Assembly: GCF_025457605.1 (NCBI RefSeq)
Contig: NZ_JAMZFY010000002.1
Span: 806,001 to 870,000 of the forward strand
Direction of reading: 5' to 3'
Source: Haloarcula laminariae
GTDB lineage: Archaea > Halobacteriota > Halobacteria > Halobacteriales > Haloarculaceae
Length of the DNA stretch: 64,000 nt
In this document: in pieces, positions 7,970-24,649 of the stretch
How positions within the stretch are numbered: position 1 is the stretch's first letter
Layout: each line of letters opens with the position of its first letter
The notes under the pieces: generated by a model
Databases searched by the model: none
What the model saw: only the letters and a program-made list of their open reading frames with translations
Told to the model about the DNA's origin: nothing
Position numbers and translations under genes: made by a program

Positions 7970-8025
7970 TGTCCCCTCGCCCCCATCTCAATACACTTAT
8001 CCCCGGCCGCTAACGTAGCGTGGGT

Positions 8026-9954
8026 ATGAGCACGGTCACGGTCACTCTGCCGGACGGGTCCACGCTCTCGATGGACGAAGGCAGTACGGTCGAGGATGTC
8101 GCCTACGAAATCGGACCGGGACTCGGTTCGGACACCGTCGCGGGCGTCGTGGACGGAGACCTGGTGGACAAACACACCCCTCTCACCGAGGATGTCGAAC
8201 TCGTCATCGTCACACCCCAGAGCGACGAGTACGTCGACGTGCTGCGCCACTCCGCCGCCCACGTCTTCGCCCAGGCGCTCCAGCGGGAGTTCCCCGAGGC
8301 GACACTGACCATCGGACCGTGGACCGACGACGGCTTCTACTACGACGTGACCGGCGTCGACCTGGACGAGGACGACCTCGAAGACGTCGAGGCCGAGGCC
8401 GAACGCATCATCGAGGCCGACTACGACATCGTCCGCGAGGAGGTCTCCCGCGAGGAGGCGTTCGACCGCTACGAGGACAACCCGTTCAAGCAGGACATCC
8501 TCGAAACCGAGGCCGCCGACGAGGACCCGGTCTCCTTCTACAGCCAGGACGACTTCTACGACCTCTGTCAGGGCCCCCACGTCGAGTCGACCGGCGAAAT
8601 CGGCGGCTTCGCGCTGCTGGAGATATCGGCGTCGTTCTGGCGCGGCGACGAGGACAACGAGACGCTGACCCGGGTGTACGGGACGGCCTTCCCGACCGAG
8701 GACGGCCTGGAGGAGTACCTGGAGATGCGACAGCAGGCCCAGGAGCGGGACCACCGGAAGATCGGCCAGGAGATGGACCTCTTCTCCATCGACGAGACCA
8801 CGGGACCGGGGCTCCCGCTGTACGAGCCAAACGGCAAGAAGATACTCAACGAGCTGTCGGACTACGTCGGCCAGCTCAACCGGGAGGCCGGCTACGATGA
8901 GATAGAGACCCCCCACGTCTTCCGCACCGAGCTCTGGAAGAAGTCGGGCCACTACGAGAACTACGTCGACGACATGTTCCTGCTCGACGTCAACGACGAG
9001 GAGTACGGCCTGAAGCCGATGAACTGCCCGGGACATGCGACCATCTTCGACCAGAAGTCCTGGTCCTACCGCGACCTCCCGGTGCGGTACTTCGAGGACG
9101 GGAAGGTCTACCGCAAGGAACAGCGCGGCGAGCTATCGGGTCTCTCCCGCACCTGGGCCTTTACCATCGACGACGGCCACCTGTTCGTCCGGCCCGACCA
9201 GATAGAGCAGGAAGTGCTGGCGACCGTCGACATCATCCTCGATACGCTGGACACGTTCAACCTCGACTACACCGTCCAGTTCGCCACCCGCCCCGAGAAG
9301 AGCGTCGGCGGCGACGAGATATGGGAGAAAGCCGAGAACCAGCTCGAATCGGTCCTCGACGAACAGGACATCGACTACGTCGTCGAGGAGGGCGACGGCG
9401 CCTTCTACGGCCCGAAGATCGACTTCGCGTTCGAGGACGCCCTCGGCCGCAACTGGGACGGCCCCACGGTCCAGCTGGACTTCAACATGCCCGAGCGGTT
9501 CGACCTCACCTACACGGGCGAGGACAACGAGGACCACCGCCCGGTGATGATTCACCGCGCGCTGTATGGCAGCTACGAGCGGTTCTTCATGGTGTTGACC
9601 GAACACTACAACGGGAAGTTCCCGCCGTGGCTCGCCCCCGAACAGGTCCGCATCCTCCCCGTCTCCGACGACAACATCCCCTACTGCGAGCAGCTGCGGG
9701 ACGAGCTCGACGACTACCGCGTCGAGATAGAGGACCGCTCCTGGACCGTCGGCAAGAAGATTCAGGTCGCCCACGACGACCGCGTCCCGTACATGCTCAT
9801 CATCGGCGACAACGAGGAAGAGGCGGGCAACATCTCCGTGCGCGACCGCAAAGAGCGCGAGGAGACCGACATCCCTCTCGACGAGTTCGCCGACCATCTG
9901 GAGACCGAAATCGAGCAACAGCGGACCGCCGTCACCTTCCTCGCCGGCCGGTAA
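8026..9954 (+). CDS. thrS: Threonyl-tRNA synthetase, bacterial-type with TGS and editing domains
   Basis: A 642-residue enzyme that charges tRNA-Thr. Order of domains: TGS at residues 1-63, N2 editing domain with HSAAH at 75-79 and [15 protein letters not shown], class II catalytic core, and a C-terminal anticodon-binding domain. The zinc ligands of the family are all present: Cys in LKPMNCPGH, His in DDGHLFV and His in [13 protein letters not shown]. This is the bacterial type rather than the archaeal type with a D-aminoacyl-tRNA deacylase-like editing domain. Start at ATG 8026 fits the family; a GTG two codons earlier is possible. Its last 13 codons recur downstream of the next gene (see repeats). 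Confidence 0.96.
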
Positions 9955-9955
9955 C
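9916..9955 (+). repeat. Direct repeat, left copy: 3' end of thrS
   Basis: A 40-base segment covering the last codons of thrS ([12 protein letters not shown] and stop) plus one base. An identical copy sits at 15558-15597, immediately after the surface-protein gene, exactly 5,642 bases away. With one mismatch the match extends to 9911. Confidence 0.95.
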
Positions 9956-10013
9956 GGGCGTTTCTGTCGATTTCACGCGAACTGAATCTTACGCCTGAGA
10001 ACTGGGCCATAAC

Positions 10014-10080
10014 GGCTTTTATCTGATACTCCCGCGGTGTTAGTGAACCGTCGCTTGCGGGGCTGTCGGTGACAGTGGAG
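10014..10080 (+). promoter_or_regulatory. TATA box and ribosome binding site of the surface-protein gene
   Basis: A TATA-like GCTTTTATC lies at 10014-10022, about 65 bases before the ATG at 10088, so the transcript should carry a leader of about 45 bases. A GGAG ribosome binding site is at 10077-10080, seven bases before the ATG. This leadered arrangement differs from the leaderless style of many neighbours. A small inverted repeat CTGTC-ggt-GACAG is at 10063-10075. Confidence 0.5.
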
Positions 10081-10087
10081 CTTTACG

Positions 10088-13000
10088 ATGAAATTGGTAC
10101 AGGGCCGAGGCGGGACCGGGTCGCACGGTGAACAGAGCTATCAACTGCGTCGTCTTCGGGCATTGTGTCTGTCGGTGCTGCTTTTGGGGATGACACTGGC
10201 TATCGCCCCGGTCGGGACGGCGGCGGCCGCGGGCAACGTGAGCGACCCGGCGTTCGTCTACGTCCAGGATTCGGCGCCGGGCGAACTAACAATCGTCGCA
10301 AACGACGGGACGAAAGTCGGCACCGGCGTCGACGAGTCGACCTACGCTATCCGTGCCATCGGTCCATCGGTCGACTACGACGGCGACGGGAACCTCGAGG
10401 TGCCGTACACGCAAGACGACGGGACGAACGGGCCGGCACTGAAGGTCGTCGACGTCGAGACCGGAACTGTCGATGTACTAGTCAAAGACACGATAGCCAA
10501 GGATAACAAACTGGCTGTCGGGGACTGGGACGCCGACGGTAACCCCGACATCTTCTACGTGACACACAGCAACCTCGCCACGGGCAACGGGGTCGGCCGG
10601 GTCGACGCGGACACGTCGCCGACGGAGATAATCCAAAACGACGGGGAGTTCGACGCGAAGCCGAAGGCGTACATGGGGACCGCCGACGTGACCGGCGACG
10701 GGGTCAGGGACCTCGTCTGGTTCGACGACAGCTCGGCTATCAAGTACACGAACAACAGCGCCAAAAACGGCGGCACGGACATCGAGAAACTCGACACCAG
10801 CAACACGCCGGGGAGTGGGGCGAACGCCGGTGTCGGCGAACCAGTCGACCTGGACGATGACGGGAAAGTTCGGTTCCCGGTTATCGACAGCTCCGGCTAT
10901 CCGGCCCTCCTCGACCTGGCCGGGGGCACGAAGATAAGGCTCGGCGACAACAAGGCCGGCGAGAAGACCGGTGTCGCGACCGGCGATTTCTACGGCGACT
11001 CGCGAGAGGAACTGGTGTACGTCGACGGCAGCGGAACCGTCAGGTACGTCGAGACGACGGACAGTAACCAGGCCACGGGCGACATCGAAATCGGCGGGAA
11101 CACGTACAATGCGCGGGCGAGTGAGGGAATCGCCGTGGGGCAGACGACCGTCACACAGCGACTCGACAGTCTCGACTCCACGAGCCCCACTCTCGATGGC
11201 GCTACCGCCGTCGGTGACAACAGCTACGTTGAGGTAACGTTCAGCGAGGGCGCGTACGCGAACGCGGACGGCTCCGGCGGGCTCTCAGCGAACGATTTCG
11301 ACGCGACGCTGAGCCAGAACGGCGGGTCTGCGACCGGCGTCACGGTCGATAGCGTCACCGATACGGGCGGTGCGGCGACAACTGGGGGCGAGCGGACCGT
11401 CCGGCTCCAGGTGACGGTCTCTAACGGTCCGGCGAGCGGTGACGAGACCGTCGATGTCGCCCCGGCTGACGGAAGCGCCATCTACGACAGCGCCGGAAAC
11501 GCGATGTCAAGCAGCGCGACCACGACCGCGACGCTGTCCGACCGGCAGGCCCCGAGCGACCCGGCCAGCACGTCGCCGAGCGACGACGCGGACGGCGTCG
11601 CGGCTGACGCCGCCGTCGACCTGACCTTCGCCGAGGACATCCGAGCGGGAACCGGCGCTATCGCCATCAAGCAGTCGAGCGACGACGCGACCGTCGAGTC
11701 GGTAGACGTGACTTCGCAGCAGGTGACCGTGTCCGGCAAGACGCTGACGGCCGACCCGTCGACGACGCTAGACGGCGGCACCGACTACTACGTCACCGTC
11801 GATTCGGGCGCCGTCACGGACACGGCCGGTAACGCCTACGCCGGCTTCACCGACCCGACGACGCTGAACTTCACTACCGCAGACACCGCGGTGCCGACTG
11901 TCACCGGCGGGACGGTGTCGTCGGACAACAGCTACGTCGATGTCACGTTCAGCGAGGGCGTCTACGCGAACGCCGACGGCACCGGCGGTCTCACCGCGGC
12001 CAACCTCACGGCGACGCTCTCCGGCGACAGCGACGGTTCCGTGAGCGGTGTCAGCGTCGACGCAGTCACCCGGACGGACGGAACTGACGCCACGGGCGGT
12101 GAGTCCACGGTTCGGGCCTCGCTGTCTATCTCCGGGACGCCGTCGGGCGACGAGTCCGTCGACATACAGCCGACTGACGGGCGGTCGGTGTACGACGCTG
12201 TCGGCAACGCGATGAGCGACACCGAGTCGACGGGGTCGCTCTCGCTGGCCGACCAGCAGGCCCCCTCGTTCAGCGCCGGTCCGTCGACGAGTTCCGTCGG
12301 TGTGAGCGGGTTCGACATTGACTTCACCGCTGACGAGAGCGGCACCGGGTACTACGTCGTCGTAGACGACGGGGCGGCCGCGCCCTCGGTGTCGCAGGTG
12401 AAAGCCGGCGTCGACGGGAACGGGAACGCCCCGGCGGACAGCGGGAGCGGCAGTATCTCGGCCGGGGTCCAGACGACGTTCTCGGCCTCCGGTCTCAGCG
12501 AGGCCACGTCGTACGACGTGTACGTGGTTGCGGACGACGGTGGCAACGCGAAGCTGGCCCCGAAACTCGACCAGACGACCGCGGACACGACGGCACCGAC
12601 CGTCACCGGCGGGACGGTGTCGTCGGACAACAGCTACGTCGATGTCACGTTCAGCGAGAGCGTCTACGAGAATGCCGACGGCACCGGCGGGCTCGTCGCC
12701 GGCGACTTCGAGGCGACGCAGTCGGGTGACAGCGACGGCTCGGTGAGCGGTGTCAGCGTCGACGGCGTCACCCGGACTGACGGCAGTTCGACGACCGGCG
12801 GGGAGACCACGCTCCGGGTCTCGCTGTCGGTTTCGGGCACTGCCTCTGGCGACGAGTCGATCGATGTCGGGCCGGTCGACGGGAGTGCAATCTACGACGG
12901 CGCCGGCAACGCGATGGCCGGCGGCGTGACGGTGACCACGACGCTGTCCGACCGGCAGGCCCCGAGCGACCCCGCGAGTAGCTCACCGACCGACGGCGCC

Positions 13001-15517
13001 GGCGGAGTGGCAAACGACACCACGATAGAGCTGACCTTCGGTGAGGACGTACAGACTGGAAGCGGCGCTATCGCGGTGAAAAGCGCCAGTGACGACACGA
13101 CCGTCGAGTCGATAGACGTGACCACGAGTCGGGTGAGCGCATCGAGCAAGACGATTACGGCCGACCCAACGACGACGCTAGACGGCGCCACCGATTACTA
13201 CGTCACCGTCGATTCGGGTGCCGTCATGGACACGGCCGGCAACGCCTACGCCGGTTTCACCGACTCGACGACGCTTAACTTCACTACTGCCGATGTCACC
13301 GCACCGACCGTCGACGCCCTCTCGGCGACGAACCCGACCGGCCGGGACGTGACCGTCACCGTCGAGAGCGACGAGCAACTGGCGACCGTCACGGCCGACC
13401 TCAAGGGCCCGGAATCGACCACCCTCTCGACTGGCGCGTTCAGCGAGGCTGTCGACGGGGACACGTACACCTACACGGCCACCTACGGCGCGAGCAGCGA
13501 CGGCGACTACACCACAGCGCTGACCGCGGCGGTCGACGCGGCCGGCAACGACGGTGCGGGCGGACAGACCGATACCGTCACCGTCGACACCGCCTCGGCC
13601 AGCACTGTCTCGTCCAGCACCGACGACGGTGACACCAGCGAACCGAATATCGACGGGTTCGCGGCGTCCGCAACGAACGGGTCGGTCGAACTGACCGTCC
13701 GGAGCGACGTACCGCTGGCGTACGTCGAGGCCACTCTCGACGGGCCCGAGGTGGCGACGCTCACGACGGACGCGTTCACCGAGTCCGATCGCGTCTTCGG
13801 CTACACCTACACGACCCGCTACGACCCCGCGATAGGGGGCGAGTACACCGCCGAGCTGACGGCCGCGACGGACGATGCCGGCAACGATGGGGCCGACGGG
13901 CAGTCAACCACCGCCACCGTCGAGTCGGTCGTCCCGCCGGAGCAGTTCACGCTGTCCGAGACGGCCGACGGACTGCGTGTCTCGGTCCGTTCGCGAGCCG
14001 CGCTTGACGTGCTCAACGTCAGTGTCGAGGGCCCCGAGAACGCCACACGCTCGCTGTCGACGTTCGACGCGACGACGACGGCCGACGGTGATACGGTGTA
14101 CGCGGCGACCGTCGCTGTGACTACCGAGGGGAGCTACACGGCGACCTTGACCGACGCGACGGTCGACGGTCAGCCGATATCGACCGGGCAGACGGACACC
14201 GCTGCGGTGGCGAACGGGTTCACGCTCGACCCGCGGGCAAGCAGCAACGACGTGGTCGTCGGCAGCAACGTCACGCTGACCGCCGGCGGCGATTTCCCGA
14301 CGGACGCCAAGCCGACCTACGAGTGGGACCTCGACGATGACGGCGAGGGCGACCGGAGCGGGCGGACCGTCACTGCGGCGTTCGACGAGCCCGGACGCCA
14401 CTACGTCGACCTCGTCGCAGTGGCCGACGGGCGCACGCTGACCGGGTCGGTGACGGTGAGCGTCCGCAACCGAACCGGGCCCAAGCCGGGCATCGACCGT
14501 CGAAGTCTCGACTTCGGCCGCGTCGCGGTGGGCGAGACGGTCCGAATGAACCTCACGGTGTACAACCCCGACAGTTCCGGGACCGGCTACACCATCTCGT
14601 CGTCCGATCTCGTCGGGGAGACGCCCGGAGCCTTCGCCGTCGGCAGCGACTTTCCGGTGACACTCGAACCCGGTGAGCGTCACACGATACCCGTCTCGTT
14701 CACGCCGACCAGTCGCGGGGACAAACAGGCCCAGCTCCAGCTGTTGCCCGCAGCCCCGTCGAGCCCGCAGCTCACCGTCTGGCTATCCAGCGAGCGAAGC
14801 TACATCCTCGTCCAGGAGGTATCCACGAACAGCTCCGTGAACGCCACCGTCAGCGTCGACGCGTTCAATGTGGACACCGACGGGCAGCTCGAAATCAACG
14901 TCTCACAGCCCGGCTCGCGCCGGCAGGCGGTGACCGTCGACGAACTCGGGATGGTCACAGCGGGCGACGACACCTTCGACATGGCCATCACCCACGCGCC
15001 GACGCCGATGTCGGCGGTCCACGAACCGGCACCGGGCCGACAGAACCTCCAGTACATCCGGCTGACCCACCGCAACAACGACTCGCTACGCTTTGCGGAC
15101 ACCGCGGTCCGGTACCGTGTCGACAGGCGCGCGCTCCCGGAGAGTACCGACCCGGGGGCCGTCGAGTTCTCCCGCTGGAACGGCACTGCCTGGAACTTCT
15201 CCGCGACCGGGACCCTCGTCGACCGGACGGCGACGCACTACGTCTATCGGGTCGAGACCCCGGGCTTCTCGCAGTTCGTCGTCACCGGCCCGACGGAAGA
15301 CGCCGTGGCAGCCGACGGCACTACGACGGCTGGACCGGAGCCTGATGGCGGTGAGACTCCTGCAGATGGCGGTGTCACGACGACTGACAGCGAGGGGCTG
15401 CCGGCTTCCTGGCCGGGTCTCGCCGTCGGCGGCGGACTGAGTGCCGTCTTGCTACTGTTGTTCGTCTTGAGACGACGCGATGAGGACGAGACGGTCGAGG
15501 ACGACCGGAAGCCGTGA
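10088..15517 (+). CDS. Giant surface protein with Ig-like repeats, PKD domain and C-terminal membrane anchor
   Basis: A 1,809-residue exported protein. Residues 1-48 are a signal peptide ending near AAAAGN. Residues 50-360 form an FG-GAP/VCBS-like region with acidic calcium-type loops such as DYDGDGNLEV, DWDADGNPDI and DVTGDGVRDL. Residues about 367-1068 are alternating SwmB-like and Big_5-like Ig domains (about six, with near-identical segments), 1071-1375 are three further Ig-like units, 1378-1460 is a PKD domain (YEWDLDDDGEGDRSG), then a choice-of-anchor-like beta domain (IDRRSLDFGRVAVGE). The end has a Thr-rich stretch, one hydrophobic segment (LAVGGGLSAVLLLLFVL) and RRR, which anchors it in the membrane; it is not a clear PGF-CTERM signal. 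Likely cell-surface adhesion or envelope protein. The whole gene sits between the two thrS-tail repeats. Confidence 0.85.
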   Translation: MKLVQGRGGTGSHGEQSYQLRRLRALCLSVLLLGMTLAIAPVGTAAAAGNVSDPAFVYVQDSAPGELTIVANDGTKVGTGVDESTYAIRAIGPSVDYDGDGNLEVPYTQDDGTNGPALKVVDVETGTVDVLVKDTIAKDNKLAVGDWDADGNPDIFYVTHSNLATGNGVGRVDADTSPTEIIQNDGEFDAKPKAYMGTADVTGDGVRDLVWFDDSSAIKYTNNSAKNGGTDIEKLDTSNTPGSGANAGVGEPVDLDDDGKVRFPVIDSSGYPALLDLAGGTKIRLGDNKAGEKTGVATGDFYGDSREELVYVDGSGTVRYVETTDSNQATGDIEIGGNTYNARASEGIAVGQTTVTQRLDSLDSTSPTLDGATAVGDNSYVEVTFSEGAYANADGSGGLSANDFDATLSQNGGSATGVTVDSVTDTGGAATTGGERTVRLQVTVSNGPASGDETVDVAPADGSAIYDSAGNAMSSSATTTATLSDRQAPSDPASTSPSDDADGVAADAAVDLTFAEDIRAGTGAIAIKQSSDDATVESVDVTSQQVTVSGKTLTADPSTTLDGGTDYYVTVDSGAVTDTAGNAYAGFTDPTTLNFTTADTAVPTVTGGTVSSDNSYVDVTFSEGVYANADGTGGLTAANLTATLSGDSDGSVSGVSVDAVTRTDGTDATGGESTVRASLSISGTPSGDESVDIQPTDGRSVYDAVGNAMSDTESTGSLSLADQQAPSFSAGPSTSSVGVSGFDIDFTADESGTGYYVVVDDGAAAPSVSQVKAGVDGNGNAPADSGSGSISAGVQTTFSASGLSEATSYDVYVVADDGGNAKLAPKLDQTTADTTAPTVTGGTVSSDNSYVDVTFSESVYENADGTGGLVAGDFEATQSGDSDGSVSGVSVDGVTRTDGSSTTGGETTLRVSLSVSGTASGDESIDVGPVDGSAIYDGAGNAMAGGVTVTTTLSDRQAPSDPASSSPTDGAGGVANDTTIELTFGEDVQTGSGAIAVKSASDDTTVESIDVTTSRVSASSKTITADPTTTLDGATDYYVTVDSGAVMDTAGNAYAGFTDSTTLNFTTADVTAPTVDALSATNPTGRDVTVTVESDEQLATVTADLKGPESTTLSTGAFSEAVDGDTYTYTATYGASSDGDYTTALTAAVDAAGNDGAGGQTDTVTVDTASASTVSSSTDDGDTSEPNIDGFAASATNGSVELTVRSDVPLAYVEATLDGPEVATLTTDAFTESDRVFGYTYTTRYDPAIGGEYTAELTAATDDAGNDGADGQSTTATVESVVPPEQFTLSETADGLRVSVRSRAALDVLNVSVEGPENATRSLSTFDATTTADGDTVYAATVAVTTEGSYTATLTDATVDGQPISTGQTDTAAVANGFTLDPRASSNDVVVGSNVTLTAGGDFPTDAKPTYEWDLDDDGEGDRSGRTVTAAFDEPGRHYVDLVAVADGRTLTGSVTVSVRNRTGPKPGIDRRSLDFGRVAVGETVRMNLTVYNPDSSGTGYTISSSDLVGETPGAFAVGSDFPVTLEPGERHTIPVSFTPTSRGDKQAQLQLLPAAPSSPQLTVWLSSERSYILVQEVSTNSSVNATVSVDAFNVDTDGQLEINVSQPGSRRQAVTVDELGMVTAGDDTFDMAITHAPTPMSAVHEPAPGRQNLQYIRLTHRNNDSLRFADTAVRYRVDRRALPESTDPGAVEFSRWNGTAWNFSATGTLVDRTATHYVYRVETPGFSQFVVTGPTEDAVAADGTTTAGPEPDGGETPADGGVTTTDSEGLPASWPGLAVGGGLSAVLLLLFVLRRRDEDETVEDDRKP
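11901..11956 (+). repeat. Internal direct repeat in surface-protein gene, copy 1
   Basis: A 56-base segment identical to 12603-12658. It encodes the start of a SwmB-like Ig domain (VTGGTVSSDNSYVDVTFSE). A longer diverged repeat with a 1,410-base period also exists, for example 11761-11880 against 13171-13290 (SKTLTADPSTTLDG and SKTITADPTTTLDG domain ends). Recent internal duplication or gene conversion is the simplest explanation. Confidence 0.9.
12603..12658 (+). repeat. Internal direct repeat in surface-protein gene, copy 2
   Basis: Identical to 11901-11956 at the base level, 702 bases apart, in the third SwmB-like domain. Confidence 0.9.
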
Positions 15518-15521
15518 ACAG

Positions 15522-15596
15522 TCGGAGTCCGACGGCCACCTCGGAACCGAGGTCGAACAACAGCGGACCGCCGTCACCTTCCTCGCCGGCCGGTAA
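15522..15596 (+). pseudogene. Remnant of the 3' end of a second thrS
   Basis: In one frame this reads [20 protein letters not shown] and then LAGR-stop, against [19 protein letters not shown] then LAGR-stop in the intact thrS. The last 12 codons are identical; upstream the two diverge in the way of synonymous and conservative change (H-L-x-T-E-V/I-E kept). It has no start and begins right after the stop of the surface-protein gene. It is best read as a truncated piece of a thrS C-terminus left by integration or recombination. Confidence 0.75.
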
Positions 15597-15597
15597 C
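15558..15597 (+). repeat. Direct repeat, right copy: duplicated thrS 3' end
   Basis: Identical over 40 bases to 9916-9955. Together the two copies bracket the surface-protein gene and its promoter, the pattern expected of attL/attR sites or of recombination between two thrS 3' ends. No integrase or transposase gene lies between them. Confidence 0.92.
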
Positions 15598-23168: not shown

Positions 23169-24194
23169 TTACCCGTCGAGCTGGTCGACCAGTACCGGCG
23201 CTTCGGTGGCCAGAATCTCCCTGACAGCCAGCGCCGCCGCCTCGGCGTCGCCGGGCAGACAGAAGACGAGCGTCCCGTCGCTGACGCCGGCCGCCGACCG
23301 GACGCCCACGATACCGGTGCCGACGTGGTCGGCCAGCCGGGAGCGAAACGCCTCGCCGAAGCCCGGCAGCGCCTTCTCCAGCAGCGGGTGGACCGCCTCG
23401 ACGGCCATCTCGTCGGCCGACAGCCCGACGCCCCCGACCGTGACGACGACGTCGACGGCCTCGCGGCCGACCAGCGTGTCGACCATCTCCTGGATGCCGT
23501 CGTAGCCGCCACGCAGCCGCTCGCGCCGCACGACCGCGTGCCCGGCCGTCTCGAAGGCCGCCGCCACGGTGTCTTCGAGGGATTCCCGGTCGCCGGACAC
23601 CGTCACGACGGCCACGTCGACGGACCGGGCGGGTGCGGCCTGTGGCGCCGCGTCGGTCGCTGGCTGTTCCGGCCCGCTCCCCGTGGCGTCCGCCTCGGTC
23701 CCTGCCGACTCGTCTCCCCCGGCCGGCTCCCCGAGCGGGTCGGCCGCCTCCGCGTCGGTCACCTGTGCAGCGGCGTCTGTTGACCCGGACCTGTCCGCGC
23801 CGGTATCGGCCGCCCCCGCCTCGTCCGGTCTTGCATCTCCGGCCAGCGGGTCCGCCGCCGTAGCGTCGTCCGTCTCGGTGGTGGCGTCCTCGGCCAGCGG
23901 GTCCCCGACACCTTGCTCCGTAGCGTCGGCCGTCTCGGTGGTGGCGTCCTCGGCCAGCGGGTCGTCGGCTTTCCCTACCCCAGCGTCGTCCATCTCGGTA
24001 GTGCCGTCTTCGGCCAGCGGGTCGCCGGCTCCGTCCGCCCCAGCGTCGGCCGTCTCGGTGACGGTGTCCTCGTCCGGCTCCGAGGGCTCCTCGTCCGCAT
24101 CCGCGTCGTCCTCGCTTGCGTCTGCGGTCTCCGACGACGAGTCCGCGTCGTCGGTGGGGCCACGGCGCGTATCGCGGGACTGGAAATCGACCAT
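23169..24194 (-). CDS. moaB: MoaB/MogA-family molybdopterin protein with acidic repeat insert
   Basis: A 341-residue protein. It begins MVDFQSRDTRRG, as haloarchaeal MoaB proteins do; then residues about 13-195 are a very acidic, low-complexity stretch, and only residues about 196-341 are the MoaB/MogA domain (VAVVTVSGDRESLED, VVVTVGGVGLSADEM, FCLPGDAEAAALAV). The enzyme family adenylates molybdopterin in molybdenum-cofactor synthesis. Three or four copies of a 20-residue unit (DPLAEDATTETADATEQGVG type) fill part of the insert. The canonical GGTG of the family is GGVG here. A start at 24194 is chosen because of the conserved N-terminal peptide. Confidence 0.82.
   Translation of the reverse strand: MVDFQSRDTRRGPTDDADSSSETADASEDDADADEEPSEPDEDTVTETADAGADGAGDPLAEDGTTEMDDAGVGKADDPLAEDATTETADATEQGVGDPLAEDATTETDDATAADPLAGDARPDEAGAADTGADRSGSTDAAAQVTDAEAADPLGEPAGGDESAGTEADATGSGPEQPATDAAPQAAPARSVDVAVVTVSGDRESLEDTVAAAFETAGHAVVRRERLRGGYDGIQEMVDTLVGREAVDVVVTVGGVGLSADEMAVEAVHPLLEKALPGFGEAFRSRLADHVGTGIVGVRSAAGVSDGTLVFCLPGDAEAAALAVREILATEAPVLVDQLDG
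23862..24080 (+). repeat. 60-base tandem repeat inside moaB
   Basis: Three to four units with an exact 60-base period; for example GCGTCCTCGGCCAGCGGGTC recurs at 23883 and 23943 and with two changes at 24003. Each unit codes for 20 acidic residues on the minus strand. Copies differ by few bases, so the expansion is recent or maintained by slippage or recombination. Confidence 0.9.
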
Positions 24195-24314
24195 GTCGGG
24201 ACAACGGGCCACGCCGAGTAAACAGTTCCCCCGACGCGCTGGGCGCTCCTGACGGCCGATAGTTGTGGCGAATAATACGGAAAATTTATGCGAACTTCGG
24301 CAGAGAAATGTGGT

Positions 24315-24476
24315 ATGGAAGGGGTAATCCACGTGGTGTGTCACGAATGCCCGTTCGAGGGGCTCTACACGTCTCCGAGGGCCGCGGCGGGGAAACGCGA
24401 GACCCACAAGCACCGGCACGACCACCGTGTCAGCCGCCTCGAAATCAGCCGGCCGGAGCCGCTGACAGACGTCTGA
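24315..24476 (+). CDS. Small zinc-finger-like protein
   Basis: A 53-residue protein, MEGVIHVVCHECPFEGLYTS at the N-terminus, with one CHEC pair and a run of His (HKHRHDH) that can complete a metal site. It resembles the one-domain zinc fingers typical of haloarchaea. Start at ATG 24315 puts the CxxC at residues 9-12; an upstream in-frame ATG at 24288 would add nine residues. Function unknown, nucleic-acid or protein binding is possible. Confidence 0.62.
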   Translation: MEGVIHVVCHECPFEGLYTSPRAAAGKRETHKHRHDHRVSRLEISRPEPLTDV

Positions 24477-24649
24477 GCGGCGCTGTTCCGACACGGGACC
24501 GTCCTCCGCAGGTGTGTCTCGGACCGCCAGTGTTTTGCGCCCGCTGACCCGACGGTGAGCCATGCAGGCAGTTCAGGTCGCTGTCCGGGAATCGGAGTTC
24601 GCGCGGCCCCCGCGCTCGCGCGGGCCCGCCGCGCAGGCAGGTGCGTTCG

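Follow-up and report, generated by a model that had tools for sequence, protein, structure and literature searches.

Introduction

Replacement flexible genomic islands, as treated in the parts of PMC4033161 drawn on here, show peaks of divergence at their borders and carry surface cargo, and the S-layer island of Haloquadratum walsbyi is included among them. Genomic islands in tRNA and tmRNA genes are marked by a regenerated gene and a displaced 3' fragment of it (sections cited from PMC4383910). Homology-facilitated illegitimate recombination, described for bacteria and shown by experiment, makes a homologous join at one end and an illegitimate join at the other (cited portion of PMC3240628). 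In archaea, the VARTIG modules of Thermococcales are large Ig-domain proteins shaped by recombination in which the C-terminal Ig domain and the downstream genes vary, and their authors state, in the part of PMC8416519 cited here, that no closely resembling module occurs in other archaea.

We analyzed a 64,000-nt stretch of the Haloarcula laminariae genome (the window; RefSeq assembly GCF_025457605.1, contig NZ_JAMZFY010000002.1, positions 806,001 to 870,000, forward strand), where a giant gene for a putative surface protein lies between thrS and pspA. The locus is like the replacement islands in its surface cargo between conserved flanks and perhaps in its divergent border gene, homologous recombination having been proposed for both, but it consists of a single gene with a displaced border-gene end, and one genome per species was compared. 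It also shares the regenerated gene and the displaced 3' fragment with the tRNA/tmRNA islands, whereas thrS is a protein gene and the insert is one gene that contains no integrase. The two unlike joins of homology-facilitated illegitimate recombination would fit the thrS scar, which we read from sequence rather than from an experiment. With VARTIG it has in common that recombination shaped a large Ig-domain protein of an archaeon, although in the giant gene internal domains vary and the conserved pspA comes next. Classing the giant gene as a VARTIG was considered and rejected, since a VARTIG has variable Ig genes downstream and pspA is conserved in the genus. The gene belongs to known kinds, the haloarchaeal giant surface proteins and the surface islands, and its entry left an unusually clear trace.

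Results and Discussion

A giant gene between thrS and a displaced thrS end

The insertion site comprises the following features.

8020-9954, forward strand: thrS, threonyl-tRNA synthetase, left flank
9820-9954, forward strand: thrS 3' end, about codons 601-645 including the stop, diverged from near relatives; candidate donor-derived segment
10088-15517, forward strand: giant surface-protein gene, an uninterrupted open reading frame of 1809 aa
15536-15596, forward strand: displaced relic of the thrS 3' end, about 60 nt, from alignments to the thrS end and to L033
15615-16454, reverse strand: PspA/IM30-family gene, right flank (PF04012, E=2.1e-33)

The thrS end is present twice in the H. laminariae genome, as the 3' end of thrS itself and just behind the giant gene, where positions 15525-15597 are 86% identical to 9883-9955, with the last 40 nt exact and the flanks differing. 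Homology of the relic to the empty site begins near 15536, and the relic with its downstream DNA matched empty thrS-pspA junctions at 114 of 132 (L033) and 111 of 132 (L034) positions. In the two close relatives with an empty site, thrS and pspA are 25 and 28 nt apart, measured to the end of the tblastn match.

To survey the genus we used 32 Haloarcula genomes including H. laminariae; thrS was found in 30 of the 31 others, and 29 were judged after leaving out G025 (no thrS match) and G028 (the contig ends behind thrS). The interval was empty in 2 of these 29 and held 1.3-6.9 kb in the remaining 27, and the giant gene was absent from all 29 thrS-pspA stretches fetched. Seven proteins of the interval were identified: a citrate-type transporter (two genomes), a diacylglycerol kinase, an ABC-2 protein, a CARDB protein and a membrane protein without Pfam family (two genomes); no recombinase was among the seven. 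Genes for m346, diacylglycerol kinase and the citrate-type transporter are common in this interval in Haloarcula (L035-L061), in varying sets, and are missing from the interval of H. laminariae and of the two empty-site relatives.

On these comparisons the gene at 10088-15517 appears as a single-gene insertion at the thrS 3' end, the sampled relatives being without the gene there. The sequence-only reading of this DNA had been concerned with the Ig domains and did not mention insertion of the entire gene or the displaced thrS end beside it. The regenerated target, the displaced fragment and the empty site in relatives by which integrase-borne genomic islands are recognised were all found. One structural gene makes up 5.4 of the 5.6 kb of the insert, in which no integrase was detected (no PF00589 match); the nearest PF00589 match in the genome lies about 56 kb away. 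The base composition of the giant gene gave no foreign signal, as its GC3 was 0.85, compared with 0.92 in thrS and 0.90 in pspA.

Origin of the functional thrS end

Over 21 nt, 25 of 30 relatives were nearer to the relic than to the functional thrS end, one was equally near to both and four were nearer to the functional end; these relatives are not independent. It is as if the functional thrS end had come with the insert, the relic being the copy closer to most relatives. Codons 601-629 of thrS showed a 2.8- to 4.3-fold excess of differences over the rest of the gene against each of the four nearest relatives (p 7.5e-05 to 5e-10). The divergence ratio of the thrS end exceeded 1 in 30 of 31 genomes, so the region is variable across most of the genus, and the highest ratio was that of L035, which has no relic (3.63, vs. 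3.49 in H. laminariae); the two are mutual near neighbours. When positions 9815-10087 were compared with 392 genomes of the order in search of a donor, 128 of the 392 matched in the thrS end, two candidates being scored per genome, and nothing matched beyond that end except a few bases (best match 85% over 142 nt).

A second displaced thrS end in another family

Among the 128 matching genomes, two thrS-end matches were found only in H. laminariae and in G211, a member of another family. In G211 a 159-nt thrS-end repeat, 86% identical, lies 949 nt downstream (L124:2672-3779), and the cargo between the copies is an HPP membrane gene and a scrap of m346; G170 and G197 keep the G211 gene order intact. 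The relic of G211 was not clearly closer to relatives than its functional thrS end.

A pattern search for the thrS end matched 29 of 146 family genomes, with two copies in H. laminariae alone, and the best direct thrS-end match in other Haloarcula was 24 nt long (L054, E=3.7e-04, vs. E=4e-21 in H. laminariae). Fifteen further genomes of the order had no direct copy and two weak inverted ones (L127, L137). From a pspA scan 80 of 227 loci were kept, 20 of them with thrS, and in these 20 only weak thrS-end copies were seen: three loci had matches of 54 nt at 74% or of 17-28 nt, and the gene order of one of them differs.

Route of gain

With moderate confidence we propose that the gene encodes a secreted, membrane-anchored stalk, that it was probably gained as a single-gene island at thrS-pspA by recombination anchored in the thrS end, and that its Ig array was rearranged. 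Recombination anchored in the thrS 3' end would have let the island enter the thrS-pspA junction, the incoming DNA replacing the thrS end and carrying the giant gene along. The right end of the insert would have joined the recipient thrS about 60 nt before its end, which would leave the relic beside pspA. Unequal crossing-over and short conversion events among the repeats may have rearranged the Ig array, either earlier, in the donor lineage, or once the gene had arrived.

We favour gain anchored by homology, of the type proposed for replacement flexible genomic islands, because of the pattern of relic and thrS end, the lack of an integrase, and a surface cargo and candidate border divergence like those of replacement islands. 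The main rival is site-specific integration of a small element for which the thrS 3' end served as attB, the two repeats being attL and attR and the integrase acting in trans or having been lost. A regenerated target with a displaced fragment does mark integrase islands in tRNA genes (PMC4383910, in the part cited), the 40 exact nt that end both copies between differing flanks would suit a crossover core, and the genome has 13 PF00589 match rows elsewhere, some of them pieces of one frame. Yet the insert itself, nearly filled by its one structural gene, carries no integrase, and the G211 repeat is 159 nt long at 86% identity. Such an event also implies a native thrS up to the core, whereas the relic is the copy closer to 25 of the 30 relatives, and we consider this explanation unlikely.

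Tandem duplication of thrS or of its end, followed by decay and by insertion or growth of a surface gene between the copies, appears still less probable. Although the thrS 3' end alone is duplicated, in two separate genomes, the genome has no second thrS match apart from the relic, the right flank aligns directly with the empty junction, and the best relative of the giant gene (in G098, another genus) sits elsewhere, with no thrS match in its 19.5-kb stretch. That the gene was ancestral at thrS-pspA and was lost in the other Haloarcula is very improbable, as it is in 0 of the 29 covered stretches and the thrS relic that matches the empty site would be left unexplained, even though the interval varies across the genus and single genomes lack genes there.

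The displaced thrS end marks where the island begins and ends and in which order the steps took place; with homologous exchange this can seldom be read. A wider proposal, which we put forward tentatively and hold to be possible rather than probable, is that small gene cargoes have repeatedly been captured at the thrS 3' end of haloarchaea through anchoring homology and without an integrase; these captures would leave displaced thrS-end scars, and their cargo would include giant surface genes with recombined Ig arrays. With a case from a second family as well, the mechanism can be put to the test in a survey. The best literature matches of a limited search had no mention of thrS; we make no claim of its absence from print.

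Architecture of the giant protein

The features within the gene are, in order:

10160-10216, forward strand: hydrophobic N-terminal segment, aa 25-43, probable signal peptide core (hydropathy)
10178-11182, forward strand: N-terminal FG-GAP-like region with four DxDxDG loops (Pfam, profile of homologues, loops)
11183-11548, forward strand: A1 domain, without Pfam family
11549-11887, forward strand: B1, Big_5 domain (Pfam)
11888-12259, forward strand: A2 domain, a seven-strand beta sandwich by model (pLDDT 65.5)
11900-11956, forward strand: 57-nt exact segment, first copy (= 12602-12658)
12260-12592, forward strand: C domain; fn3 match no better than E=0.13; present four times in the ortholog of G098
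12593-12958, forward strand: A3 domain, apparent mosaic with an A2-like front and an A1-like tail
12602-12658, forward strand: 57-nt exact segment, second copy (= 11900-11956)
12959-13300, forward strand: B2, Big_5 domain, 73% identity with B1 (Pfam)
13301-14212, forward strand: repeated domains D1, D2 and D3; D1 and D2 49% identical
14237-14458, forward strand: PKD domain (Pfam)
14471-14743, forward strand: choice-of-anchor D / ASH domain (NCBIfam NF012200, 47.1 bits, cut-off 45; Pfam ASH)
15080-15289, forward strand: PGF-pre-PGF-like region, below cut-off (TIGR04213, 18.9 bits vs. cut-off 28)
15413-15469, forward strand: C-terminal hydrophobic segment, probable transmembrane anchor, followed by RRR (hydropathy)

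The protein thus begins with the hydrophobic N-terminus and the FG-GAP-like region, continues with A1-B1-A2-C-A3-B2 and D1-D2-D3, and ends with the PKD domain, choice-of-anchor D, the PGF-pre-PGF-like stretch, a linker in which acidic residues and threonine are abundant, the second hydrophobic segment and RRR. Hydropathy peaked at aa 25 and 1776, with RRR after the second peak, and the protein is acidic (D+E 14.9% vs. K+R 5.0%). The N-terminal signal, the C-terminal segment with a basic end and the acidic composition that characterise a membrane-anchored haloarchaeal surface protein all appear to be present. The PGF-CTERM sorting model of archaeosortase substrates gave no match at E <= 1, PGF_pre_PGF alone being hit, below its cut-off.

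Of the two kinds of Ig domain that the sequence-only reading had named, the Big_5-like one was borne out, as Big_5 (PF13205) matched two stretches with 95.3 bits (cut-off 23.6). The SwmB-like assignment did not hold: A1-A3 had no Pfam match above chance, and the SwmB/SWM profile was unmatched by A1-A3 at E <= 5 and by the whole protein at E <= 1. The A domain also lacked a sequence match in the PDB (best E=0.97). A structure model of A2, built with A1 and A3 as the alignment, gave a seven-strand sandwich of middling quality (pLDDT 65.5, pTM 0.56), for which the best Foldseek match had E=0.051 and none reached 0.001. VIA-align applied to the top-ranked Foldseek chains placed the S-layer protein SbsC first (Z 6.6, which is below 8, rmsd 3.1-3.2, 93-94 aligned) and archaellum FlaG second (Z 5.7). 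The model hints that A may be an Ig-like surface domain, though the structural likeness may be just a common arrangement.

Four DxDxDG loops start at residues 96, 146, 200 and 254, and a fifth lies in the PKD domain at 1414. Against Pfam FG-GAP_3 the N-terminal region scored 26.5 bits, just short of the cut-off of 26.9, and a profile of 12 N-terminal homologues found cartilage acidic protein 1 (CRTAC1, 9etn) with E=2.3e-07 for the whole sequence and no individual stretch passing by itself; structure prediction of the region was unusable (pLDDT 33.5). The region is like cartilage acidic protein 1 and its FG-GAP repeats by profile similarity, and differs from it in being a head joined to an Ig stalk; its propeller fold is putative. 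An FG-GAP-like head that binds calcium is likely on these grounds. The earlier idea of calcium-dependent folding is plausible for this N-terminal region, whereas the Ig array has no pointer to calcium.

From the sequence features we infer a secreted surface stalk made up of a calcium-binding head, a chain of Ig-like spacers and a C-terminal anchor. A role in adhesion, recognition or exposure to viruses is a guess from this architecture.

Repeats within the Ig array

The exact repeat that had been reported 702 bases apart is real, with a length of 57 rather than 56 nt (11900-11956 = 12602-12658); the 300 nt around it are 81% identical at the same offset. Likewise, the 1,410-base period was confirmed, as 11438-11737 and 12848-13147 are 75% identical with exact runs of 34, 23 and 18 nt, and it links A1-B1 to A3-B2.

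The same reading had seen recent duplication or gene conversion in these repeats. Among 118 aligned A2/A3 codons, 64 are identical, 22 differ synonymously and 32 non-synonymously. A run of 19 identical codons gave p=0.0001 against shuffles of all codons and p=0.017 when the amino-acid-identical codons alone were shuffled, for a segment that was picked after it had been seen. The corresponding run of A1-B1/A3-B2 gave p=0.023 (all codons) and p=0.64 (amino-acid-identical codons alone). Since only the A2/A3 run stood out in the stricter shuffle, there is modest support for the view that a short patch, the 57-nt segment, was recently homogenised between A2 and A3. Recent duplication of whole domains is not supported by the sequences: identity at the protein level is 85/122 (70%) for A2/A3 and 76/120 (63%) for A1/A3, compared with 74/122 (61%) for A1 and the A domain of G098 in another genus. 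The conversion part of the claim was thereby retained for one patch, while the repeats themselves are old.

A3-B2 appears to be a recombinant mosaic of A2 and A1-B1. The first two segments of A3 have nucleotide identities of 0.88 and 0.78 to A2, and its last segment is 0.82 identical to A1 vs. 0.66 to A2. The segment trees conflict: in the front-segment tree A2 and A3 paired (support 0.889) and A1 grouped with G098, whereas in the tail-segment tree A1 and A3 paired (0.878) and A2 grouped with G098 (0.674), each tree having six short sequences and hence limited support.

Domain numbers in related genes

To the N-terminal query the G098 protein has 55% identity over residues 83-339 and, in a different frame, 64% over residues 3-88. 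This frame change near the N-terminus of the ortholog (L103:6650-6940) may be a sequencing error or a broken gene. The array differs between the orthologs, because the A/B/C/D counts by HMM are 3/2/1/3 in H. laminariae and 1/0/4/1 in G098, the single D of G098 being detected only with the HMM filters off. The suggestion that domain number is labile was in this way supported between orthologs, with one genome per species compared. Different domains were multiplied in each lineage (A and B here, C in G098), an example of length change in an archaeal surface stalk.

The A domain is present in 4 of 392 genomes of the order (E <= 1e-10) and is single-copy in the other three, so among the A-bearing genes found it was multiplied in the H. 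laminariae gene alone. G120 and G084 have one A and one B-like domain each (hmmsearch, filters off). Two plasmid records matched, at only 36% and 27% identity, and a pattern search with the N-terminal region over genome contigs gave 42 matches, none of them a relative. G120 and G084, which belong to two genera, share a surface protein of about 2565 aa (L226/L227) that is 93% identical over its full length, which suggests transfer between genera.

Elsewhere in the window, an open reading frame on the reverse strand (23169-24563) has an acidic stretch of repeats of about 20 residues, with a 60-nt tandem repeat at 23840-24072, and its C-terminal part presumably resembles MoaB/MogA proteins.
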